Shown piece by piece: positions 3,118 through 23,289 of a DNA stretch of 64,000 nucleotides. Position 1 is the stretch's first letter, and each line of letters begins with the position of its first letter. Source of the stretch: Effusibacillus dendaii (lineage in GTDB: Bacteria; Bacillota; Bacilli; Tumebacillales; Effusibacillaceae); contig NZ_AP023366.1 in NCBI RefSeq assembly GCF_015097055.1, forward strand, positions 1,951,001 to 2,015,000, written 5' to 3'. A program made the position numbers and the translations under genes. The notes below the pieces were generated by a model. The model saw only the letters and a list, made by a program, of their open reading frames with translations. It searched no databases and had not been told where the DNA came from.

Positions 3118-3464
3118 ATGGGACAAGAGTATCGACGTACAGCTACCACCGTATCTCTCATTCACTCCCATTTCGTTTTCTGCCCTCGTTATCGAAGAAA
3201 AGTATTAGTCGAACAGGTGGAAACTCGATTCAAGGAACTGTGGGCTGAATATGCCAAAAGAATGACTGGTTTATTCCTACTGATTCTCCATCAGACGTAA
3301 TGGCAAAAGTGAACGGAGTGACCTCTCGAATAGTAAGGCAAGAGTTTAAGCATCTTGCTCATTTGCCCAGTCTGTGGACACGCTTTTTTTTCGTAAGTAC
3401 AGCAGGAAACGTATCAAACGAAACAGTAAAGCGTTATGTGGAAGAACAAAAGAAAAGGGGGTGA
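3118..3464 (+). pseudogene. tnpA: IS200/IS605 TnpA (Y1 HUH transposase) remnant
   Basis: The first frame (3118-3300) gives VSLIHSHFVFCPRYRRKVL, the classic amino terminus of TnpA. The second frame, through ATG 3300 to TGA 3462-3464, gives GVTSRIVRQEFKHL and ends NETVKRYVEEQK, which carries the catalytic tyrosine. The middle of the protein, where the metal-binding His-hydrophobic-His motif (usually PDHVHLL) should be, is deleted and the frame changes there. It therefore has the tyrosine but not the HUH centre and cannot nick DNA. Confidence 0.85.
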
Positions 3465-3468
3465 ACAC

Positions 3469-4522
3469 ATGCAACCCTTAACCGTTAAGATTCGCATCTT
3501 TCCTGAACAACCAGACGTGCTTCATCAACCGGGAAAAGAGTATATTCGGGTAGTCAAACAGCTAACCGAGCAGGGTGATCAACTTGGTGCATTTCCGCAG
3601 GTGACTACAAAAGATGTAGAAACAATACTTCCAGCTGCCGTTTGTAATCAAGCCATTCGTGATGCCAAAAGCGTTTTTCGTAAAATCAAGAAACCGGGTG
3701 TTCGACCGATTCTAAAAAAGCCCGTATACTTCGTAAACAACCAAAACTACTCTATATCCGAAAATACAATTGCTTTTCCTATCGTTGTAGATGGAAAGAC
3801 AAAGGAAACGGCGTTTCGGGCTACAACGACTCGTCGGGACAGGGAGTTGTTAGAAAATGCCAAGTTTGGATTGATGCGAGTGGTTGAAAAGTCGGGCAAA
3901 TGGTACGCTCAATTTCGTTAGAAGTACCAACAAGCAAATCAAACAGTGAAAATATCATGGGCATTGATCTTGGATTGAAAGTTCCTGCTGTTGCTGCAAC
4001 TTCGACAGGAAAAACTCGCTTCTTCGGGAACGGCAAACAGAACAAGTACATACGAAGAAAGCACCAACAACGTAGACGTAAATTAGGGAAACTCAAAAAG
4101 TTGTCAGCCATCCGAAAGTTAGGAAACAAGGAACAACGCTCGATGAAAGATCAGAACCACAAGATGAGTCGTCAAATTGTCAACATGGCGATTCAAGAAG
4201 GTGTATCCATGATAAAGCTTGAGCGACTGGAGAATATTCGCAAAACGGCAAGAACAAGCCGTAAAAACGCAAGAATCTGTATAGTTGGGCTTTCTATCAA
4301 CTTCAGCAGTTCATCTCCTACAAGGCAAACCTTGTCGGTATTCGTGTAGAGGGAGTAAATCCAACGTACACATCCCAAACATGCCCGGTATGTGGGAAGA
4401 AGAAGAAAGCAAAAGACCGAAGGTACAGATGTTCATGCGGATTCAATACTCATCGTGATCGGGTTGGTGCAATCAATATCTTGAACCAACCTGTGGCAGA
4501 TGATAACAGTCTGCCAGCCTAG
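3469..4522 (+). pseudogene. tnpB: IS605 TnpB (RuvC-like RNA-guided nuclease) with two frameshifts
   Basis: Three consecutive frames reconstruct a TnpB of normal length. Frame one (3469-3921) is the amino-terminal domain ending GKWYAQF. Frame two (about 3910-4290) holds the RuvC I motif GIDLGLKVPAVAA and RuvC II with IKLERLENIRK. Frame three (about 4285-4522) has a zinc ribbon CPVCGKKKK...CSCGF and RuvC III HRDRVGAINI. All three catalytic acidic residues (D, E, D) survive, so the damage is only at the two frame junctions. Intact TnpB proteins cut DNA guided by an RNA from the element's right end. Confidence 0.85.
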
Positions 4523-6262: not shown

Positions 6263-7396
6263 TTACAATAGGAGAGTCCCGAGTAAACCCAGCCCGTACG
6301 ATACAACCCCGACGATAATACCGGCGGCAGTCATCTCTAATCCACTCGCCCACCAACTTCTTACCGTGATAAGACTTTTCGCAGCCCCTACTGCAAAATG
6401 GGCCAATATGCTTACTACGGCTGCCGTCACCATAGCAGGTAACCCCGATAAGAAGAAGAACGGGATCAGCGGAATAATTCCTCCTATGAAAGTGGAAATG
6501 CAACCGTAAAGAGCAGAAGTCCATGGGTTAGCAGCAGTCGATTCATGAATTCCCAATTCCTCTTGTGCCATGGCCTTAACGAATTGTTCAGGGTCGCTGG
6601 CAATCCGGTTTGCGATCTGTTTCGATTCTTCTTGTGAAAACCCCTTTAATTCATATAACAGGGCCAGCTCTTCCTTTTCGTGTTCCGGATCTTCTTGTAC
6701 CTCACGTCGTTCGTGTATAAGTTCACTCTCCATAAGCTCGTTTTCCGATTTTGTTGCAAGCCATGCTCCCGCGCCCATCGATAACGTACTGGCAAGAGCG
6801 CCGAAAAATCCGGATACGAGTATAGTATGGCTATCGTTCGTATAACCCGCGACCCCTGCGATAATGCCAAAAATAGCCCCGAGTCCATCATTTACACCAT
6901 AGATGGCATCTCCCACCCAATCTCCCGTTTTCTGTTTATGCCAACGTTCTTTCCTCCAAATGTTGTTTAACACGTTCGAAATACTTGGAGTGGATCGAGT
7001 TAACGAATTTACTGTAGTTTCATGTTCCGCTTCATCTTCTTCAATTTTATCTAGAATTTGCAGTAAGTTTTCATCAGCCAACAGGTTTCTTTGCGATTGG
7101 TACCACGTTGCATTACTCTGTTCAATATCGAACAATTTTTTCATCAAATTGGTTGTCTTTAGATCATTAGGCACTTTGATAACAGGCAGTTGAGACAAAT
7201 CGTATCCGAGTTCGGTTAATTGCTTTTCCCATAATATCGCATGTTCCTTCTCAATTTCCGCAAGACGAAGCAAAATATTATGTTTTTTCGGGTTTGGCTC
7301 TTGCCTCGCTGCCAGTTCATACAGTTGTACAGCTTCCATTTCGCGCCGCCAGTTTTCAATCAAAAGTTTCTTTTTGAGATCAAGATTTGAATCCAT
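6263..7396 (-). CDS. Ferritin-like (rubrerythrin) domain fused to VIT1/CCC1 iron-manganese transporter
   Basis: A 377-residue fusion. Residues 1-145 form a four-helix ferritin-like domain with ExxH iron ligands (REMEAVQLYELAAR, AEIEKEHAILWEKQL, EEDEAEHETTV). Residues about 155-377 are a VIT1-type membrane domain starting GDAIYGVNDGLGAIFGIIAG, with a cytosolic acidic linker (ELMESELIHERREVQEDPEHEKEE) and several membrane helices. Family members move Fe(II)/Mn(II) across the membrane. The start at 7396 follows CAGGAGGTGAT; the in-frame position further upstream would place the ribosome site inside the gene. It splits the GntR catabolic cluster, with which it has no obvious functional link. Confidence 0.88.
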   Translation of the reverse strand: MDSNLDLKKKLLIENWRREMEAVQLYELAARQEPNPKKHNILLRLAEIEKEHAILWEKQLTELGYDLSQLPVIKVPNDLKTTNLMKKLFDIEQSNATWYQSQRNLLADENLLQILDKIEEDEAEHETTVNSLTRSTPSISNVLNNIWRKERWHKQKTGDWVGDAIYGVNDGLGAIFGIIAGVAGYTNDSHTILVSGFFGALASTLSMGAGAWLATKSENELMESELIHERREVQEDPEHEKEELALLYELKGFSQEESKQIANRIASDPEQFVKAMAQEELGIHESTAANPWTSALYGCISTFIGGIIPLIPFFFLSGLPAMVTAAVVSILAHFAVGAAKSLITVRSWWASGLEMTAAGIIVGVVSYGLGLLGTLLL

Positions 7397-12522: not shown

Positions 12523-15013
12523 ATTTCAATCCACGCATCCGCGAGGGATGCGACGAAAATATCAACTGTATGTGATCCATCGAGCGTATTTCAATCCACG
12601 CATCCGCGAGGGATGCGACTTACACTGGTTGTTCAGGAATTGTTCGACCAAGCGGTATTTCAATCCACGCATCCGCGAGGGATGCGACTCTCGTTCTAGG
12701 ATGGCTTTACGGACTTTGGGAGAATTTCAATCCACGCATCCGCGAGGGATGCGACGTTTTGCAAACGACGGTCAGACCATGCTGCATGTATTTCAATCCA
12801 CGCATCCGCGAGGGATGCGACTCGCTTGGCATCTTTTCCCCTGACTCCACCTTAATTTCAATCCACGCATCCGCGAGGGATGCGACCAGCCACGTGTCCG
12901 GCTTGTGACGCTTCCAATCCATTTCAATCCACGCATCCGCGAGGGATGCGACGTCGGAGCAATACCTACTCGGCTGCCTTCTGCTAATTTCAATCCACGC
13001 ATCCGCGAGGGATGCGACAACTCGGCCACAAAGATACGATCCGGGAACATCCATTTCAATCCACGCATCCGCGAGGGATGCGACTTTTTCTGAGTACTCC
13101 AAGTGATTGGCGGCAAATATTTCAATCCACGCATCCGCGAGGGATGCGACGAACAACGGGTATTGTGTCTCTAAAAAATAATAATTTCAATCCACGCATC
13201 CGCGAGGGATGCGACTCTACATTTTCCTAATAGTTCCCCCGTTTTCTTTATTTCAATCCACGCATCCGCGAGGGATGCGACACTTTTTGAAGGACATCCG
13301 CGCGAGTGTCAAGGAATTTCAATCCACGCATCCGCGAGGGATGCGACGTGATTACTGTCATGGATAACGGTAGCCAATTTGATTTCAATCCACGCATCCG
13401 CGAGGGATGCGACTGCCGAATGGTTAATACCAAACCACTCGTACAGCCAAATTTCAATCCACGCATCCGCGAGGGATGCGACTCGTGTGAAATCGGTGCA
13501 AGTAACACTCGATAAAATTTCAATCCACGCATCCGCGAGGGATGCGACGTTGTTGTAGGTGGATTTGTTTGGTGGTTTGGACATTTCAATCCACGCATCC
13601 GCGAGGGATGCGACTGGCAAGTTTTGCTCTTGAGGATGGTGTCAAACCATTTCAATCCACGCATCCGCGAGGGATGCGACTCCCAAAACCGGTCATTTCG
13701 GCCAACCGCCGGACGATTTCAATCCACGCATCCGCGAGGGATGCAACGATCAACGTAAAGAAAAACTAACACAACGTTACATTTCAATCCACGCATCCGC
13801 GAGGGATGCGACTCGTCGTCAGATAGACCGATCAATTCTTCGTCTGATTTCAATCCACGCATCCGCGAGGGATGCGACAGTCACGACGACCCAATACCAG
13901 AGCGGTATCTTCGAATTTCAATCCACGCATCCGCGAGGGATGCGACCCGGTGGCCAGTTGGACAGCAGAAGAGATGTCGGTATTTCAATCCACGCATCCG
14001 CGAGGGATGCGACCCCATATACTGAGTCTCCTTTCTTGCAGTAGGTATTTCAATCCACGCATCCGCGAGGGATGCGACTACAACACGATTGTCGGCCGAA
14101 TCAAGATTTTGGAATTTCAATCCACGCATCCGCGAGGGATGCGACACTTCTCGTACTACTGGATTGCAGACCGACAAGATTTCAATCCACGCATCCGCGA
14201 GGGATGCGACAACAAAAGAACGTTTATAACGAGAATCCCGACAAATTTCAATCCACGCATCCGCGAGGGATGCGACGTTGTACTGCGTACTCTTGATATT
14301 TGTGTGGGATATTTCAATCCACGCATCCGCGAGGGATGCGACAGGATTTCGGCTGCTCACTCAGCCACTGTTCCAATTTCAATCCACGCATCCGCGAGGG
14401 ATGCGACGGTTAGACTTCTGACAGCCGGTGACAGGCTAAAGCTATTTCAATCCACGCATCCGCGAGGGATGCGACTGCGTATTTCTCTCTCCATTCTCGT
14501 TCCACGAAAATTTCAATCCACGCATCCGCGAGGGATGCGACCTCGATTCGCCTAGGATAGTGCTTCCAGAATTCCTCATTTCAATCCACGCATCCGCGAG
14601 GGATGCGACATCGGAGGCGACCAATATGGAACTCAACAAATATTGATTTCAATCCACGCATCCGCGAGGGATGCGACTCCCGCCTTTTTGAGTTTTTCAA
14701 TATAACCGGATTTATTTCAATCCACGCATCCGCGAGGGATGCGACGTTTGATGAGCGGCGGTTTGAAAAATCGTTTAATATTTCAATCCACGCATCCGCG
14801 AGGGATGCGACTCCCGCCTTTTTGAGTTTTTCAATATAACCGGATTTATTTCAATCCACGCATCCGCGAGGGATGCGACTACAGCAGGCTCAGCAAACAC
14901 AGCGGGCAGTTGCTATTTCAATCCACGCATCCGCGAGGGATGCGACGGTGCGATTCTAGCGGGAATAAAAATATTTCCGGTATTTCAATCCACGCATCCG
15001 CGAGGGATGCGAC
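12523..15013 (-). CRISPR. Type I-C CRISPR array, 38 repeats and 37 spacers
   Basis: A 32-bp repeat occurs 38 times, spaced by unique 33-36-bp spacers. On the transcribed (minus) strand it forms a CGCATCC/GGATGCG stem with a CTCGC loop and ends TGGATTGAAAT, the typical I-C repeat type. The leader and cas2 lie at the right end, so new spacers enter near 15013 and the oldest are near 12523. All repeats are identical except number 19 from the left (13716-13747), which has one G-to-A change at the stem-side end. The spacer at 14678-14713 is repeated exactly at 14812-14847. Cas5c is expected to cut the transcript at each repeat. Confidence 0.98.
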
Positions 15014-15190: not shown

Positions 15191-15490
15191 CTACAATATC
15201 AAAGGGCCTTCTATATCAATTGACTCTTTCACACCAAAATGTTCTACCTTATTCTTGTAATTATTCCCCAATTGATAGAACCTAAGGCTGTCCTGCTCTT
15301 GATCTATAAGATCAAGGAGCTTTAACTTCAAAACAGTAAATTGAGTGGCGTCTACAACGCATTCAAACACTGAGTTTTGGACACGCTGGCCATAATTCTG
15401 GCATGCTTTAGAAACCAGACGCAGTCTCTTTTGACCTTCACTACTAACTGTGCTTACATCATACGTAATCAATACCAGCAGCTTTTTCAC
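15191..15490 (-). CDS. cas2: CRISPR adaptation protein Cas2
   Basis: A 99-residue ferredoxin-fold protein, MKKLLVLITYDVST at the start with the conserved aspartate after strand one. With Cas1 it forms the spacer-integration complex. It starts with GTG directly after the Cas1 stop (TAG-GTG), so the two are translationally coupled. Length and sequence are as usual for type I-C. It is the last gene of the operon and abuts the leader. Confidence 0.95.
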   Translation of the reverse strand: MKKLLVLITYDVSTVSSEGQKRLRLVSKACQNYGQRVQNSVFECVVDATQFTVLKLKLLDLIDQEQDSLRFYQLGNNYKNKVEHFGVKESIDIEGPLIL

Positions 15491-16522
15491 CTACTTCCAC
15501 AAAAAAGGTGGATACTCATCTAAATCATTACGCAAATAACGGGCTAATAGTAGGGCTTGTGCATGTGGGACTAACCCCCAGGAAATCTTCTCGCCAAGAT
15601 AGGGATGCGTGATTTTCTCTTGCTTCTTATTTTGCCATGCGGATAGAAACTTCTTTCTCGCCTCATCCCTCAAAATAACTGCACCGTTCTCTTTTTTTAA
15701 AAAATCTTCTTTGCTGACAATCTTCTTATTAATTAATGACAACACAAACTTATCTGCATAAACACCTCGCAGTTCCTCCATCATATCCAGCGCCAAAGAA
15801 ACGCGTCCCGGCCGGTCGCGATGCAAAAATCCAACATAGGCATCCAGTCCGACGCCTTCCAGCGCGGATGCCACATCATTCGCTAACAGCGAATAAGCGA
15901 ACGAAAGCATCGCATTCACGTTATCCAGCGGCGGCCTACGGGAACGCGAGTGAAAGTAAAAATCCTCTTTTTGCTGCAGGATCATAGTGTCGAATAGTTT
16001 GTTGTAGCTAATAGCCGCTTGTCCTTCCAGTCCTCTTAATCTTTCTAGATCTTCACAAGCTCTTACGTCTAAAATGATAGCGGATAGCTGCTGCGAAACA
16101 GCTTTGAAGCGGGCAACATCAATACGTAAAGGATAATCTCTGGTCATTCTCTCGATGATCCATTTGTGATTGTAGATCTTACCAATTATAAAATTACGCG
16201 CAATCTTCGCCGACAGGACCTCATCTTCCGATATATGATATTGTCTCTTCCTCAGGACAACATTACCCTTGCTTTCTCCAATGACTCGGGCCAGAAATCT
16301 GCCGTTCATGGTAAAAAAGACTAACGAGATATTGCGCTCTGCACAATATCCCATTAATGCCGGACTTGCACCGGTGTAACCAAATGCGATAATCGATTCC
16401 AGGTTGTGCAGAGGCAACCTGCCCAGCTTCTCCTGTTCCTTAAGCAGAACAATATTATCGCCGTCCAGCGACAAATAAACATCGGGCTGTGTAATAAACA
16501 GAGTATTTAGCAGCTTTTTCAT
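15491..16522 (-). CDS. cas1: CRISPR-associated endonuclease/integrase Cas1 (type I-C)
   Basis: A 343-residue Cas1. The metal-binding residues are visible as E166 (RLRGLEGQAA), H234 (YVGFLHRDRPGR) and D246 (SLALDMMEE). It integrates new spacers at the leader-proximal repeat together with Cas2. Its ATG overlaps the Cas4 stop by four bases, which fits coupled translation in the cas operon. Confidence 0.97.
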   Translation of the reverse strand: MKKLLNTLFITQPDVYLSLDGDNIVLLKEQEKLGRLPLHNLESIIAFGYTGASPALMGYCAERNISLVFFTMNGRFLARVIGESKGNVVLRKRQYHISEDEVLSAKIARNFIIGKIYNHKWIIERMTRDYPLRIDVARFKAVSQQLSAIILDVRACEDLERLRGLEGQAAISYNKLFDTMILQQKEDFYFHSRSRRPPLDNVNAMLSFAYSLLANDVASALEGVGLDAYVGFLHRDRPGRVSLALDMMEELRGVYADKFVLSLINKKIVSKEDFLKKENGAVILRDEARKKFLSAWQNKKQEKITHPYLGEKISWGLVPHAQALLLARYLRNDLDEYPPFLWK

Positions 16523-17178
16523 TCCTTGATTTTCCCTTCAACGTAACTTCTAACGGTCCGTTTATTCATTAGCTCCGGCAAGCAAATATTTTGAAGGGAA
16601 CAGCTTCGGCAGAAAGGCCCGGTTTTCACTTTAGGCGTATGCCTGCGCTTATAATAGTCTTGCATTTCAGCAACAATCAACTTTACCTTGTTTTTAATAT
16701 CTGCAGTTAGCGAAACCTCAACTCTATGTTTGATCTCGTTATAAAACATATAGCCTGTACCTATGTCGCACAGCAGCATTTCCTCCAGACAGATGGCTTG
16801 TGCAGCTAGTTGTAAAATATCCTCATCGTTCAATTTCGGCTTTCCGCGTTTATATTCAACCGGATATGCGATGTATTTCCCTTCGGATCCACTAATTTCA
16901 ACACCGCTGTCGTTTCTTATAAACTCCACCACATCGCATATACCTGATATTTTAAGGTTCTCTGACCTCACAGGCATTGCGCGAACGATAAGCTTATCAC
17001 CCCGTTTCTCTCTTGTGAACGGCTGATCGGCATTTCGATGAAGGTACTTTCCCACGATGGTTCTGACGTTTTCTTCCCATTGCTGTTCAATATGGATTAA
17101 TGCCCACTGCCGTTTACAAAATTGAAAATGTTGTATACCGGACAACATTAAATAATCATCGTCTTCCTTATTGTCCAT
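16519..17178 (-). CDS. cas4: CRISPR-associated RecB-like exonuclease Cas4
   Basis: A 219-residue protein with the RecB nuclease motifs ICDVVEF (D82) and YPVEYKRGK (E108, K110), and four cysteines for an iron-sulfur cluster: C21 near the start and C190, C193 and C199 near the end. In type I-C, Cas4 trims prespacers and selects those with the correct PAM before Cas1-Cas2 integrates them. Its start overlaps the end of cas7 by 11 bases. Confidence 0.95.
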   Translation of the reverse strand: MDNKEDDDYLMLSGIQHFQFCKRQWALIHIEQQWEENVRTIVGKYLHRNADQPFTREKRGDKLIVRAMPVRSENLKISGICDVVEFIRNDSGVEISGSEGKYIAYPVEYKRGKPKLNDEDILQLAAQAICLEEMLLCDIGTGYMFYNEIKHRVEVSLTADIKNKVKLIVAEMQDYYKRRHTPKVKTGPFCRSCSLQNICLPELMNKRTVRSYVEGKIKE

Positions 17179-18028
17179 CTATGATCTCTACCTTCAAACC
17201 TTCCAAAGGCTGAACAGCAAACTTGTAATCTTTGAAGGACTTTGGTTCCTCTACGAGTCTTTCAACCGTTAAAGACCGATGTACTTTGGCCGAAGAATAC
17301 TGCCCGAGCTTGGAATTGTGTTCCCACCAATACACGGTGTGGACTTCCATGCTTCCTTCCGGTCTGGCTGACGACGCGTCGTTTTCGAATAAGGAAACTA
17401 GCGCATTCTTAAATTTCTCAGCATCTTCATTCGTAAATCCGGTTTTCTCAGCCAGCTGTGGATTTATACTGCCATAAAAGACGTAGACACCCGAATCTAC
17501 ACGATGCTTCATACCCATCGTATCCGAACCTTTTGCCGCACCCGGCTCGGAATTGACGCTTTTCGTAATTTGCAGGCTGGTAATGTCAATCGGATCGATA
17601 CTGGTTGCAGTATGAATGGAAACCGGACCCCGTATTCCAACAGAGACACCTGATCCCTTATCAGCTTTGAACGCAAATACCTGGCCAAAGCATCGGACAT
17701 CTAACCATGTCCGGCAAGCGATGTTGGCAAACTCATCGCCAGAACCTGTTTTAGACTTCAAAATTTTCTCCAGTTCGGGATTCGCCTCTGCACGCTCTCT
17801 TAAACTATTGTATGAATCGGACTTGCGATCGTTGGATTGGACAAAGATAGCTTCGCCCATATCCTGCAGACGGTTTCTAATTTTCCGTTTCAGCGCAACA
17901 TCGGATATCTCACCATAGCCATCGTAGTTTTGCCGCGGCCGATTGCCATTCAATGGATCACCATTCGGATTAGCCTTGGTTACGGATAACACAACTGCAA
18001 AATCAATTTTACGATCTAAAGTCGCCAT
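17168..18028 (-). CDS. cas7: Cascade backbone protein Cas7 (Csd2)
   Basis: A 286-residue protein beginning ATLDRKIDFAVVLSVTKANPNGDPLNGNRPR, of which FAVVLSVTKANPNGDP is the hallmark of type I-C Cas7. Several copies coat the crRNA in the interference complex. The spaced thumb of Cas7 subunits is what flips out every sixth crRNA base in type I effectors. It lies 16 bases after cas8c in the same operon. Confidence 0.96.
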   Translation of the reverse strand: MATLDRKIDFAVVLSVTKANPNGDPLNGNRPRQNYDGYGEISDVALKRKIRNRLQDMGEAIFVQSNDRKSDSYNSLRERAEANPELEKILKSKTGSGDEFANIACRTWLDVRCFGQVFAFKADKGSGVSVGIRGPVSIHTATSIDPIDITSLQITKSVNSEPGAAKGSDTMGMKHRVDSGVYVFYGSINPQLAEKTGFTNEDAEKFKNALVSLFENDASSARPEGSMEVHTVYWWEHNSKLGQYSSAKVHRSLTVERLVEEPKSFKDYKFAVQPLEGLKVEIIDGQ

Positions 18029-18044: not shown

Positions 18045-19934
18045 TTAATTCGATGCTTCCACTACATCATGATTTTCTTTCTTCTGATAAAGTTCGTGCC
18101 GCTGACTATAAAATCCAAGCAAGTACAAACCCGATAATGGCTTATTATTAAACTGATCTACCGGAATTCGTGAAGCTACTTCATCAATAATTTTAGAGTA
18201 ATAGGTTCCCTTCTTTCCAAGTCGGGCTTGGTAAGGCTGCAAGCAGTCCTGGATGGTTTTCCAGGTTCTTGCCGGGCGATTGGAAAAAGCGTTCATATAA
18301 CGAATAGCATTGGTGGATCGGTTCTCATCGACGCTGTCTAACACACGTCTTTCCAAAACATCGGCGACAGCCAATAAACGGCCGAATAAGTAGTCACGGT
18401 TATTATTGTCCGTATCTAATGCCACATTGAATCCCTCCTGTCTGTTGATTAACGCGCATGTAATGCTGAGCGTCTTCTCCCATTCCCATTTCTCCATCGA
18501 TACGGGGTTGGACGCACGGTGATAAGCACTGGTTACAATGTCTAACGGAATCTTCCGATCATCGATAATACATGGCAGTATTCGCTCCATTAGTCCTTTG
18601 ACAGTTTTGTCGCTTGCTCTTGGCCCGTAAGCAGCAAAAGCGATATCCTTCGTAGCCGGCGCCCCGAAAAATTGCACAAATTCACCATTGTCATTCTTAC
18701 GATACCGATGTAACCACGCACAGGTTGAATGCCATTTGGCAAGCCGGTCGAGGTAGAGCTCCTTGTCCATATTCCGATAGTACAGCACCGCCATACGCCC
18801 TGTTGTAGCCGAATCCAGTACCAAAATGTTCACATTCGCCTTTGACGACAACCGATTTCTATATCCGTCTAACGCTTTTGCCACTTCATCGGCGAACTCT
18901 TGATTGGTAAACGATATTCTCTCCTTGGTTGTAACAGGTGTTGGGTCTATGGAAAAATAATCCTCGGTAAGTCCCGGAACCTCAAGTTCATCATTGGCCC
19001 ATACTAGAAACACACGCTGATCAATAATTTTCCCCTGGCGATTAATGAGCCATTTCAAGGCATTATGGGCTTTTTGTGAAACTTCATAACTGATGCTTGC
19101 CGCTTCATGGCTAAGATTAAACCTCCCTCGAAAGGTAAAGCCGCTTTTGTCATTCGCCGAGATTAATTTGGCTTTATCTGCCGCATTTCTAATTTTATTC
19201 GCATGCTTGTCCGTACTTGGTAGCAATCTTCCCGTGACATAACAGAGATCCTCAACGCCTAACCGACTGCTGTAAAATCGGATGAAAGAATCGCATATCT
19301 CCTGATCCTTCCATACCTTTGTCAATATCTTTGTAGGAGAATAGACGTTAAAACGAACGAACGCACTGGTTTGCTCTCCACTAATAACAGAGAATATAGG
19401 CGGTTTCGCACCATACATAGCCTCGGCATTTTTGTCCCACTTGTCGATGAGTCGACCCGCGGCGTCCAAATATAAAATCTTGTGTTCAACTAAGTCCCGA
19501 ATGAGCTGTCCTTTGCTCAAATAGTGATAAATGCTCTTTACCTTGGCGACAGCATATGGAGAATTCGCCCAATCTTCCAGCTGTTTGATGTAATATGTAT
19601 AGGGCTCTTCTTTTTTAATTTCCCCGCCGTATGCCGCATAATCTCCCGCTACATAACTTAATTTATCATGCAGAGGATAGGGCGCAATGACGGCACCTGC
19701 GCGGCTTGCAGATTCTTCAGTACACGGAATCAAAGTGCTCGCATCACTCTTGTCAATCACACTCGCTGAATGAAATTCGCCATCTTCTGTTATCTCTACT
19801 TCGATGTGCGCATTTTGCGTTGTGTGGGAAACAGGAAGCAGCGTGTATTCTTGATCGTTATGTTTTTTTTCAATCTTGCCAACAAGGTCCAAATTCGATT
19901 CAAATGTTTCATACAAATTTAATAGCCAACTCAT
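18045..19934 (-). CDS. cas8c: Cascade large subunit Cas8c (Csd1)
   Basis: A 629-residue protein of the Csd1 family, starting [20 protein letters not shown], with the motif [19 protein letters not shown] in the middle and the usual [17 protein letters not shown] end. It is the PAM-recognising large subunit of the type I-C complex; a small Cas11c is normally made from an internal start in its 3' part. Its ATG overlaps the cas5c stop (ATGA). Confidence 0.96.
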
Positions 19935-20653
19935 GGATTCCTCCCCTCCTCCAATTGTGTGAGCAGCTCATCCGCCGATACAACATTTGTTTCATCGAAA
20001 TGCTTCGGCTCCATATCCTTAATCATGCGAACCTGCGTGCACTGTTCGGGTCTAATAAATTGGATCACTCCATCCTTCATGACCGGATTCCATAGACGCA
20101 CTTCCAAATGGTTCCTGCCTGTTTCATCCGGATAATTCAAGCCATGAACCATGCTCCCCAGATGAAGCTCGCCATAGCCGTCATAAAACCCTTTCCCTTC
20201 TCCAAATACGCAAGGTTCAACATAAGCCTGACATTCCCTGGCTCCAAGAAAAATGTCTCTGCGACCACCAGCCTGGAGCGAACGTTTCAGGATATTGTGG
20301 TGCTTATGTTCGTTGCGGTCGTAGGCCATTTCCGGACGATTCATGTTGAACTCAAAATGGGCACGTACCTGGTAGCGAACATCTCTCAAATACGTATAGT
20401 TGGCAAGCGTATTTCCTCCACCGTACTCAATTGGACGAATACCCTTGGATTCCATACGGATCGGGTTCATGATACGGACTTCATCGACGACCATGATCAA
20501 TGTCGGCTTCCAATATATGGACTCTAGTATTCCCTTAAGCGCTTGATAAGTAGGCACTTGGTAGGAAAGCTTTTCCCCGCCAAGCTTAGTCAACGGGTCG
20601 GTAAATAACGCATACTCTCCATAAACAACAAATTCTATCGAATTCCTCATCAT
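19931..20653 (-). CDS. cas5c: Cas5c (Cas5d), crRNA-processing endonuclease of type I-C
   Basis: A 240-residue Cas5 protein. In type I-C, where Cas6 is absent, Cas5c cuts the repeat stem and then stays on the 5' handle. The catalytic region [20 protein letters not shown] has the Lys-His pair typical of the active subfamily, and [10 protein letters not shown] is the family amino terminus. No cas6 is present in the locus, which agrees. It is the first gene of the cas5c-8c-7-4-1-2 operon; AAGGAGGTGA precedes the ATG pair. The promoter lies about 75 bases upstream and contains the CreR-like target. Confidence 0.95.
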
Positions 20654-20702
20654 CTCACCTCCTTCCCATCCAACTTTTCTGACAATTCCATATTACGCCA
20701 AT

Positions 20703-20760
20703 TCCAATTCACAGTCAAATGCTTTACACATTATATGAATTTACCTTTGAATAGTGTGCA
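20703..20760 (-). promoter_or_regulatory. cas5c-operon promoter overlapped by a TTC-flanked protospacer for the CreR-like RNA
   Basis: On the minus strand a TATAAT (20735-20730) serves as -10, with a weak -35 (TGCACA or CACACT) at 20753-20760. A TTC, the standard type I-C PAM, lies at 20739-20737. The next bases from 20736 downward read ATATA-A-TGTGT-A-AAGCA and match the guide of the RNA encoded at 20804 at every position from 1 to 17 except 6 and 12. A Cascade complex bound here would sit on the -10 box and the start of transcription. Confidence 0.8.
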
Positions 20761-20769
20761 TGATATAAT
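20740..20769 (+). promoter_or_regulatory. Promoter of the CreR-like RNA
   Basis: An extended -10, TG-A-TATAAT (20761-20769), is preceded 18 bases upstream by TTTACC (20740-20745). Transcription should start at about 20774-20776, exactly where the degenerate repeat begins. The -35 box abuts the PAM of the cas promoter protospacer on the other strand. Confidence 0.7.
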
Positions 20770-20774
20770 GAATC

Positions 20775-20852
20775 GTCGCTATGTGCATAGCGTGGATTGA
20801 AAAATATAGTGTGTGAAGCAGAAACCTATCCTTAGATAAAGATAGGTTTCTC
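20775..20852 (+). ncRNA. crRNA-like RNA (CreR/CreA-like) guiding Cascade to the cas5c promoter
   Basis: Bases 20775-20803 are a degenerate CRISPR repeat. They start GTCGC, keep a hairpin with a CGCTAT/ATAGCG stem (the array has CGCATCC/GGATGCG, so both arms changed together) and end TGGATTGAAAA (array: TGGATTGAAAT), which preserves the crRNA 5' handle. The guide starts at 20804. Its first 17 bases read ATATA-G-TGTGT-G-AAGCA and match the cas5c promoter beside a TTC PAM. From 20820 the sequence folds into a hairpin (AGAAACCTATC / GATAGGTTTCT) that would close the RNA's 3' end. No second repeat follows. Such RNAs are known from other type I and V systems, where they let Cascade bind a promoter without cutting because the match is short. 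The role here is inferred from sequence. Confidence 0.85.
20820..20852. terminator. Hairpin at the 3' ends of cas3 and the CreR-like RNA
   Basis: A perfect 11-bp stem, AGAAACCTATC / GATAGGTTTCT, with a 10-base loop, 7 bases after the cas3 stop on the minus strand. Neither side has a good T-tract, so it may protect 3' ends as much as terminate. Confidence 0.6.
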
Positions 20853-20859
20853 GTCATCC

Positions 20860-23289
20860 TCAAAACATGCTCAAATCAAACCCGCTGTTATTTTCGAGAT
20901 CAAGGCCGTACTCCCCACTATAAGCACTTTCCTTCAGCGCTAATATTTTCCCATCAAGCAGACTTACCAACCCATTATTCTTCTCCAGTTGCTCCCGTTC
21001 CCAGGTAAACAGATTGATAGAATATTGTTGGGCCTTGCGCAGCAAGCGTGATAGATCCTCAATCGTTTCATTGCCGTTCAGCTGCGCAATAATGTCTTTG
21101 CCTTCATCGCCATAAGGGACAATAACAGATGTCGTATGGTCATCAATAACATGAAAGTTTTCTGCTGCGGTTCGATAACTATTCACGATAAATAATGGCA
21201 GGCTTTCCTTCTTATCCTGTGAATAGGCTATATTATACGAGTTGTGTTTCCTATCAGACGCCAATAACTCTATCATTTCCTTCTTTAATTTCCGTATATA
21301 ATAATTCAAACTCGAACTGAACTCTGTATAAAACTCCTTAAAATACCTTTCCATTGCCTGAGCAGATAAAATATTGCCGCCATGATGGTTCTGATCGCGC
21401 TTGAGATCGACGAGAATCCGCTTGGACAGTTTTTTCCCAACTTTTATTTCCTGCAAATGATCCAGATTCTCCTCTACATGATCAATAACATAAACCTCCT
21501 GAATCTCCTGCTCCCCATGACGGTTGCATCTGCCGGCAGCTTGGGCAATGGAATCCAGTCCCGCCAAAGAGCGAATCACACAATCAAAGCTTACATCTAC
21601 TCCGGCTTCGATCAATTGGGTGCTGATGCATATGACTTTTTCATTATTCACAAGATGTTCTCTCACTTGTCCCAAAATGTGATTCCGATGCGCGGCGCAC
21701 ATCGATGTGCTTAAGTGATAAACGGGCACATCACTCCCTTCCATTTGACGGTATAACCTCTTCACAACCGTTTTCGTATTCAAAATAACAAGCACACTCT
21801 GAACCTCGCCTATTTTCTCCACTATAAAATCGGCAAGCTTGTCATTGTTAAACGTCTCTTCCGTTGCTTTATCGACTATTTCCACCCGTTTAAATGCTTC
21901 AATTACGCGATCAAGGTTCTGAATGATTTCAGCGTCCGCGTTTATTTCCAGCTTATGCTCGACAAAATCCAGAGCGGGCTGAGTTGCGGTGCAAAGAATG
22001 AGGCTGGAATGGCCATAAGTTTTCAAAAAATTCAGCGTCTGATTAAATAGCGATATGCATTTGGTTGGAACCTTCTGCACCTCGTCAAAAATAATGACCG
22101 ACTCGCTTAAATTATGAAGCCTCCGTATATTCCTGCTGCCTTTGGCATAGAACACGTTCAAAAACTGCACCATCGTCGTAAAAATAATCGGTGAATCCCA
22201 GTTATCCTTGGCCAACTTTAACTTTTGTTGCGTATTGATTATGCCATCTTCGTTCTCGTCGTCATCATCCAAATCATCGATGACGTTTGAATGGTGCTCG
22301 AGAATATGTCCGTCATCCATTAAAATTTTGCGTACTTCTTCTGCGTTTTGTTCTATTATCGTTGTGTACGGGACTACATACACGATGTGCTTTTTGTTAT
22401 ACAGGCCGGCATGCTTAAGCGCATATCTTAAACTTGCTAATGTCTTACCGCCGCCAGTTGGAATCGATAACGTATAGATCCCCGATGGCTTCTCCGCAAA
22501 CCGGCCGCACTGATCCGACATTTCTCTCCTAAGCGCATTTATTTGTGTTTTTGCAGCGTCTTGAACTTGGTAGGAGTCAATCTTTTCCATCAGTTTTTCA
22601 TAATATGCATCAAACAGCTCCTTGCGGCTCGGTTCCGGTTCCACGGTCTTATTTTCTTCAAATAATCTGGTGTTCGTTCGATCGGCATCTATCAAAGCGC
22701 TAAAAATAAATTTGGTTAAGAACATCAGCTTACTTTCACTATTCCCCGAATAGGGTTTCATCAGATAAGCTTCCAATTCATCTACTGCTTTAGAAACATA
22801 TTGCTGAAATTCCGCCTCACTCATCACATGGTCAAAAAAGCACTGCTTCGACCTGTCAAACTCTTTTAATTCGAATTCGTTTTTTTGAACGCGTCTCAAG
22901 TAGGGTGACTCCAGATCCGGATTTAAAAAATCGTGAAGATAGGAATGGTGCGATATAATAGCGTTTCCAACGACTTCGGCCAGAATCCAATTAAGTCTGG
23001 AAGGAGCCCCTGTATGAAACAGTTGATATAATAACTTCCCCCCCGCCGTTGAATGGTCAACACTTCCTCTCTTCGGCGGAGAATCCGGATTTTTTACAGC
23101 TTCTATGATGTATTCTCTAAATTCATGGGTGTACTTACCCATATCATGAAGCATCCCTGCAAGACCTGCTATATGCCTGACTCCAACCTTCTCCCCGAAT
23201 GATTCCGCCAAATCCTTTACTCCAAGCAAATGCTCCTCGACGCTCTGAATCTGTTTGTCACTTTCACGGATATGGGCGATGTACTTCAT
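20860..23289 (-). CDS. cas3: CRISPR-associated helicase-nuclease Cas3
   Basis: An 809-residue Cas3 with an amino-terminal HD nuclease (MLHDMGKY with H48-D49, SVDHSTAGGK near residue 77, ISHHSYLHD near 112) and a superfamily II helicase (Walker A PTGGGKT at 277-283, DEVQ at 402-405, QLIEAGVDVSFD and a QAAGRCNRHG motif VI). It unwinds and degrades DNA marked by Cascade. It is upstream of, but separated by 206 bp from, cas5c, instead of being tightly joined as in many I-C operons. The gap holds the CreR-like RNA and the cas5c promoter. All key motifs look intact. Confidence 0.97.
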   Translation of the reverse strand: MKYIAHIRESDKQIQSVEEHLLGVKDLAESFGEKVGVRHIAGLAGMLHDMGKYTHEFREYIIEAVKNPDSPPKRGSVDHSTAGGKLLYQLFHTGAPSRLNWILAEVVGNAIISHHSYLHDFLNPDLESPYLRRVQKNEFELKEFDRSKQCFFDHVMSEAEFQQYVSKAVDELEAYLMKPYSGNSESKLMFLTKFIFSALIDADRTNTRLFEENKTVEPEPSRKELFDAYYEKLMEKIDSYQVQDAAKTQINALRREMSDQCGRFAEKPSGIYTLSIPTGGGKTLASLRYALKHAGLYNKKHIVYVVPYTTIIEQNAEEVRKILMDDGHILEHHSNVIDDLDDDDENEDGIINTQQKLKLAKDNWDSPIIFTTMVQFLNVFYAKGSRNIRRLHNLSESVIIFDEVQKVPTKCISLFNQTLNFLKTYGHSSLILCTATQPALDFVEHKLEINADAEIIQNLDRVIEAFKRVEIVDKATEETFNNDKLADFIVEKIGEVQSVLVILNTKTVVKRLYRQMEGSDVPVYHLSTSMCAAHRNHILGQVREHLVNNEKVICISTQLIEAGVDVSFDCVIRSLAGLDSIAQAAGRCNRHGEQEIQEVYVIDHVEENLDHLQEIKVGKKLSKRILVDLKRDQNHHGGNILSAQAMERYFKEFYTEFSSSLNYYIRKLKKEMIELLASDRKHNSYNIAYSQDKKESLPLFIVNSYRTAAENFHVIDDHTTSVIVPYGDEGKDIIAQLNGNETIEDLSRLLRKAQQYSINLFTWEREQLEKNNGLVSLLDGKILALKESAYSGEYGLDLENNSGFDLSMF

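Follow-up and report, generated by a model that had tools for sequence, protein, structure and literature searches.

The cas locus and its antisense element

The window analysed here, a stretch of 64,000 nucleotides of Effusibacillus dendaii, comes from a genome that consists of a single contig of 3.45 Mb and carries a CRISPR-Cas locus with Cas3, Cas5c, Cas8c, Cas7c, Cas4, Cas1c, Cas2 and an array all present, which assigns it to type I-C. Each of the seven cas genes had at least one NCBIfam match above the cut-off (Table 1). The gap of 206 bp between cas3 and cas5c houses a further element (20775-20851), which lies on the opposite strand to the cas genes and is composed of a standalone degenerate type I-C repeat, a handle, a short guide and a 3' hairpin, with an extended -10 motif ahead of it.

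Table 1. Features of the type I-C locus, the antisense element and its target (window positions)
Feature	Position	Strand	Details
cas3	20860-23289	-	TIGR01587 and TIGR01596; upstream of the element, outside the targeted promoter
Hairpin, terminator-like, AGAAACCTATC-loop-GATAGGTTTCT; predicted RNA end	20820-20851	+	11 bp in centroid fold; stem sequence conserved in alignment
Guide, target-matching, ATATAGTGTGTGAAGCA	20804-20820	+	15/15 matches outside positions 6 and 12
5' handle, 11 nt, TGGATTGAAAA	20793-20803	+	array handle TGGATTGAAAT
Degenerate I-C repeat, 5' part	20775-20792 (stem-loop 20777-20792)	+	GTCGC and 6-bp stem CGCTAT/ATAGCG, loop GTGC
Extended -10 of predicted small-RNA promoter, TGaTATAAT	20761-20769 (TATAAT 20764-20769)	+	10/12 consensus matches, with TG
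Weak -35 of predicted small-RNA promoter, TTTACC	20740-20745	+	
PAM, 5'-TTC-3'	20737-20739	-	cas-gene strand
Protospacer matched by the guide, ATATAATGTGTAAAGCA	20720-20736	-	directly after the PAM
-35 of predicted cas5c promoter, TTGACT	20713-20718	-	protospacer positions 19-24
-10 of predicted cas5c promoter, TAATAT	20690-20695	-	17-nt spacer
cas5c (crRNA-processing Cascade subunit)	19931-20653	-	TIGR01876, 282 bits; opens the operon under predicted control
cas8c	18045-19934	-	TIGR01863
cas7c	17168-18028	-	TIGR02589
cas4	16519-17178	-	TIGR00372
cas1c	15491-16522	-	TIGR03640
cas2	15191-15490	-	TIGR01573
CRISPR array	12523-15013	-	38 repeats, repeat GTCGCATCCCTCGCGGATGCGTGGATTGAAAT

Anatomy of the element

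A first-pass annotation of this DNA had described a degenerate repeat with a GTCGC start and a compensated stem, an extended -10 of its own, a position outside the array between cas3 and cas5c on the other strand, and a stable hairpin at the end, and all of these features are present, the handle included. Compared with the array repeat, the stem of the element is shorter and changed in sequence yet compensated, and the handle differs at its last letter only. Processing by I-C Cas5 yields a 5' handle of 11 nt, according to the accessible part of PMC5965380. The sequence GTGGATTGAAA occurs 42 times in the genome, namely 38 times in the array, once in the element and three times elsewhere. A handle variant, CGGATTGAAA, seen in 13 of 37 loci with an array, did not track the array handle.

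In an alignment of 30 copies, each letter of TG.TATAAT was conserved in at least 90%, and TATAAT is followed by GTCGC at a spacing of 5 nt. Between 20640 and 20880, three promoter-like sites were counted, against 1.0 +/- 1.0 in shuffled sequences. Inspection of the alignment showed that no second repeat stands after the guide, which leads directly into the conserved hairpin. A promoter and terminator scan found no T-run terminator at the hairpin of the window; the hairpin may also terminate cas3 transcription from the opposite side. At gathering thresholds, no Rfam family was found in the window. In the minimum free energy fold of the isolated RNA, the 5' arm of the repeat pairs with the guide seed and not with its own 3' arm (20777-20811), and this pairing could be a switch.

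Target site and predicted cas5c promoter

When the cas3-cas5c gap was searched for the guide sequence behind TTC, a target was found next to the predicted cas5c promoter, immediately upstream of its -35. Guide and protospacer agree at positions 1-5, 7-11 and 13-17, with mismatches at 6 and 12. Positions 6, 12, 18, 24 and 30 are the flipped-out positions of type I crRNAs in the excerpted text of PMC5965380, and TTC is a tested I-C PAM of Xanthomonas oryzae in the part of PMC8406640 available to us. This target site and the short guide are additions to the first-pass annotation. A search of the genome with the PAM and positions 1-15 gave one perfect match, the site upstream of cas5c, and one more site with two mismatches (C1:3412538); a reversed control pattern with two mismatches allowed gave one match genome-wide.

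In 31 of the 36 loci with a target on the cas strand, the best-scoring -35 begins within protospacer positions 15-29. Many of the cas5c promoters predicted in this way are weak, with z values against shuffled sequences from -0.8 to 4.5. The target lies on the opposite strand in two of 38 loci (L007 and L064). In the window, a further promoter-like site matching 9 of 12 consensus letters was found at 20787-20760 on the minus strand. It was also considered whether the target of the window is the ordinary -10 of the main cas5c promoter; this was rejected, as the -35 of the best-scoring promoter sits downstream of the match.

Position 6 of the target is A in 30 of 38 loci though it is unpaired, and the guide has A there in just 4 of 38. 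TATAAT in the target may itself serve as a promoter element, possibly as the -10 of a second promoter, and the guide might avoid forming TATAAT at position 6.

Conservation among Cas5c relatives

From relatives of Cas5c, 88 loci (L001-L088) were gathered, L001 being the copy of the window. An antisense repeat with handle was present in the cas3-cas5c gap of 45 of them, the window included. Brevibacillus panacihumi (L014 and L016) is among the carriers of the element, and Neobacillus vireti DSM 15602 (L022) does not have it. Gap lengths were tabulated for 84 loci; the window was omitted, as were L008, whose Cas5 is distant, and L063 and L080, in which no upstream cas3 was found. In this table, in which near-identical strains were kept, the element occurred in 43 of 46 gaps of at least 175 nt, together with a target in 39 of them; for gaps of 100-174 nt, the figures were 1 of 11 and 0 of 11, and none of the 27 gaps shorter than 100 nt had the element. 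This pattern indicates that the element occurs where cas5c has room for its own promoter, and its absence from all 27 short gaps implies that it is dispensable. The first-pass annotation had suggested looking in related I-C loci for a degenerate repeat followed by a promoter match, and this combination turned out to be conserved in the 39 long gaps just given.

A TTC target was absent from five of the 45 elements (L009, L027, L076, L083 and L085), including the locus with the closest Cas5c (L009, 88%). Decayed copies of the element were recognised by eye in L009, L027 and L076 and remnants in L019, L020 and L034. L027 has retained the repeat and lost promoter and target, and in L019 and L020 a conserved AACCTATC/GATAGGTT hairpin persists beside cas3 after loss of the repeat (both by eye).

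Pairing and co-evolution of guide and target

With positions 6 and 12 set aside, 39 of 45 elements have a site behind TTC that agrees with the guide in at least 13 of the 14 remaining positions, compared with 8 of 13,500 shuffled guides. Guides swapped in from other loci reached this level in 146 of 1,980 pairs, a figure to be read with the shared sequence of relatives in mind. When no PAM was demanded, 40 loci gave a best match of 12 or more out of 14, and TTC stood before it in 39 of them; the lone exception is L041 with TTA, where a TTC site is also present. The start of the guide is equally exact: with the guide beginning right after nucleotide 11 of the handle, a TTC target was found in 40 of 45 loci, and none of the 45 had one at any of the six other offsets tried.

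For the remaining statistics, the five elements without a target and the duplicates L014 and L016 were removed, leaving 38 loci with the window included. Own targets matched in 521 of 532 cells; 100,000 permutations of targets among loci, which ignore kinship, gave a mean of 373, a standard deviation of 8 and a maximum of 429. The own match was 11% at position 6 (swapped 15%) and 26% at position 12 (swapped 27%), 84-100% at the other positions of 1-16 and 11-47% at positions 17-30. High values at the paired positions are favoured because the 38 loci were picked by a match threshold. The threshold explains neither the swapped-level values at positions 6 and 12, nor the exact start, nor the PAM.

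Co-evolution was counted by parsimony for the 38 distinct loci on a FastTree tree of Cas5 and Cas3. At the 14 paired positions, guide and target changed to the same base on 66 branches, both changed differently on 4 and only one side changed on 14. The corresponding counts were 3, 1 and 42 at positions 6 and 12, and 8, 20 and 172 at positions 17-24. Such a pattern would be expected of a Cascade guide that pairs with DNA over about 16 nt, and we could conceive of no alternative that would produce it.

Searches in further genomes, plasmids and viruses

A covariance model was built from 30 elements and run against 398 genomes of the class with a threshold of E <= 0.001. It matched in 12 genomes. 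A Cas5c match was present in 52 of the 398, and all 12 belong to these. Four of the 12 had supplied sequences to the model (G000, G025, G034 and G046, the genome of the window being one of these). Of the eight matches outside the model set, seven had a TTC target agreeing at 12 or more of 14 positions, and the eighth, L107, had none; as L099 and L103 repeat guide-target pairs already in the set, the count becomes five of six new matches with a target. When 30 of the 52 Cas5c loci were opened, 13 satisfied the rule of element plus target. One of these, L119 (class relative G375, around 1066), combines a nearly full-length repeat stem with an unrelated guide whose target lies at a distance of about 180 nt, and can be taken as the same logic with a different guide family.

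Nine I-C plasmid loci were examined of 48 matching records (Paenibacillus, Monoglobus, Lacticaseibacillus, Lysinibacillus, Nitratidesulfovibrio, Thermus, Streptomyces, Zymomonas and Treponema), and none had element and target by the same rule. Virus-borne copies of repeat and guide were sought by two pattern scans of viral contigs, which gave the same two contigs, and the candidates were rejected as the match lies within a long phage-like ORF.

A scan of the 48 loci without an accepted element found only array spacers (L036, L048, L053, L085 and L087) and an unrelated match (L078). In 42 of these 48, the 1,500 nt upstream of cas3 were searched as well, and one match was obtained, L087 of Paenibacillus sp. 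An7 (7095-7260). Here the gap measures 99 nt, and the last array spacer before cas3 is 25 nt long and is followed by a degenerate terminal repeat. The site that this spacer matches is flanked by TTC and lies about 115 nt beyond it, 250 nt before cas3 (13/14 outside positions 6 and 12, mismatches at 6, 9 and 12). The array end of L087 may follow the same self-targeting logic at the cas3 promoter; a single hit across 42 loci, with hundreds of spacers tried, could also be due to chance.

Proposed mechanism

Taken together, the conserved layout and the coupled changes of guide and target argue that the element would make a crRNA-like RNA with one repeat and a 17-nt guide, and that type I-C Cascade loaded with it would very probably sit at the predicted cas5c promoter and repress its own operon cas5c-8c-7-4-1-2. 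The RNA would be transcribed from the extended -10 at 20764 with a predicted start near 20775. The degenerate repeat is predicted to fold, and Cas5c to process the RNA and bind the handle. Cascade would then occupy the -35 region of the cas5c promoter, and the position of this site suggests repression as the outcome. If the complex assembles on the 17-nt guide alone, its footprint ends just upstream of the -35. As matching stops near nucleotide 17, where the hairpin starts, binding would probably not license Cas3 and the chromosome would thus stay uncut. Killing by I-C in Xanthomonas requires at least 27 matching nt in the available text of PMC8406640, and shortened R-loops of I-F1 bind without triggering Cas2/3 in that of PMC7296934; by analogy, binding without self-cutting would be expected. 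Array crRNAs would compete for the same subunits, so that abundant crRNA or a blocked Cascade should relax the repression. A Cascade bound beside the promoter of the RNA may damp the RNA itself as well.

The first-pass annotation had proposed a crRNA-like regulator with which I-C Cascade controls its own synthesis. The regulator itself is borne out, as far as sequence can tell, by the TTC protospacer at the predicted cas5c promoter and by co-evolution at the pairable bases. Control of Cascade synthesis would apply to cas5c-8c-7-4-1-2 as a predicted operon and has to be narrowed with respect to cas3, which would stay outside the loop because its gene lies upstream of the controlled promoter.

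Alternative explanations

The strongest competitor keeps the same targeting and changes its outcome: Cascade might activate or insulate the cas5c promoter, or mainly repress the divergent promoter of the RNA. Pairing in the window that stops just upstream of the -35, the -35 of the RNA itself (20740-20745) abutting the PAM, and the A kept at the unpaired position 6 of most targets, whose TATAAT may be the -10 of a second promoter, would all suit this explanation. Against it, the best -35 falls within the 35-bp stretch of a full Cascade in the same 31 of 36 loci, and the CreR subtypes named in the accessible part of PMC13131331 (I-B, I-E and V-A) are described there as autorepressive, so that a different outcome appears improbable, though it retains more weight than the other alternatives.

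A smaller, very low probability is given to an inert relic, that is, a stray or decaying repeat from an old array with an accidental promoter match. The degenerate repeat stem and the decayed copies and remnants seen by eye in some relatives would fit such an origin, but a relic would hardly keep the element and a PAM-adjacent target jointly in 39 of 46 long gaps or accumulate 66 concerted changes, and the target permutation contradicts it as well.

Repression of the cas5c operon through a guided Cascade is also to be weighed against a decoy in the manner of Racr, where a solitary repeat would titrate Cas5c or Cas7 and the guide would be irrelevant. Racr, too, is a solitary repeat behind a promoter, and an I-C example is shown to be active beside acrIC5 in the part of PMC10651486 available. 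However, Racr is phage-borne, whereas the element is host-encoded within the cas locus, and the viral scans gave just the two contigs described above; moreover, guide positions 1-16 are under target-coupled selection that a decoy would not need, which leaves this idea hardly any probability. An antisense or 3'-end element of cas3, with a convergent RNA overlapping the cas3 message and a shared two-way terminator, is just as implausible, since the conserved hairpin stem and its persistence next to cas3 after repeat loss in L019 and L020 would be accounted for, but repeat, handle, PAM and co-evolving guide would be left unexplained. Pairing of the guide with the cas5c mRNA is precluded as well if the predicted start is right, since the guide has mRNA sense and its site precedes that start.

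Comparison with known systems

The guide of known CreRs is commonly followed by a second repeat, which makes a mini-CRISPR; the element has a single repeat and, where the second would stand, a terminator-like hairpin. Cas-regulating RNAs called CreR are reportedly the subject of Liu et al. (Cell Host Microbe 2023) for types I-B, I-E and V-A. The element resembles them in being crRNA-like with the handle of its subtype, in lying outside the array and within the cas locus, and in having a guide that partly matches, with a PAM, the predicted promoter of its own cas operon, which the effector would repress. No toxin partner was seen at the element, tiny toxin ORFs being outside the search. Unlike the known CreRs, the element belongs to type I-C with Cas5c as processing enzyme, its guide match is just 16-17 nt long, and it lies antisense in the cas3-cas5c gap, so that cas3 would escape control. 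By the features examined, it would fit as a CreR-like autorepressor in type I-C. In the open-access literature searched, no CreR of type I-C was recognised, and absence from print is not claimed.

Standalone crRNA-like elements with spacers partly matching cas promoters are said to have been predicted across type I and V-A loci by Shmakov et al. (NAR 2023). The element shares with these the repeat-like sequence and a spacer partly matching a cas promoter, and the count of co-evolution at paired and flipped positions comes from the present analysis. A natural single-guide tracrRNA of Cas9, attributed to Workman 2021, reportedly autoregulates cas expression with a short-match guide. The element is similar in its natural short-match guide and in cas autoregulation, but the Cas9 RNA is derived from a tracrRNA and belongs to type II.

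In the accessible part of PMC12737573, a CreR is a crRNA-like RNA guiding Cascade or Cas12a to a cas promoter, and the repression is relieved by crRNA competition or anti-CRISPRs. The same portion of text covers the CreTA and CrePA toxin-antitoxin modules, in which a guide RNA makes Cascade a repressor. Here, too, a guide RNA would turn Cascade into a repressor, but the target is the cas5c promoter region and not a toxin gene, and the only perfect target in the genome is the one upstream of cas5c.

Implications

A joint reading of these findings can be put forward tentatively, with a little less than an even chance of being right as a whole. For a large share of the type I-C systems of Bacilli, Cascade might also serve as a dedicated transcription factor, its built-in guide having a single repeat and being trimmed by the terminator hairpin to about 17 nt. 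The short complex would bind and be unable to call Cas3, which would make self-targeting safe, and an A would be avoided at the unpaired position 6 of the guide so that the guide's own DNA forms no TATAAT promoter. The loop would set Cascade and the adaptation genes and leave Cas3 constant, and operons with cas3 first may use a short array-end spacer as in L087.

If autorepression by the element is true, many Bacilli type I-C systems carry an RNA-guided thermostat for their own effector, CreR-type control extends to the Cas6-less type I-C, and a readout for anti-CRISPRs against I-C is predicted. In the dozens of natural guide-target pairs, evolution has recorded which Cascade positions pair in vivo, and comparing genomes is enough by itself to reveal the 6-nt flip rule. 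The element could also be used to study crRNA sensing and the guide lengths at which binding occurs and cutting does not.

Other observations in the window

In the array (14678-14845), the spacer TCCCGCCTTTTTGAGTTTTTCAATATAACCGGATTT is present twice, with one different spacer separating the copies. The array repeat at 13736-13750 has a point change and reads gatgcaac instead of gatgcgac on the plus strand. Apart from the cas locus, two neighbouring ORFs at 3436-4349 resemble by eye a broken TnpB-type (IS200/IS605) gene.
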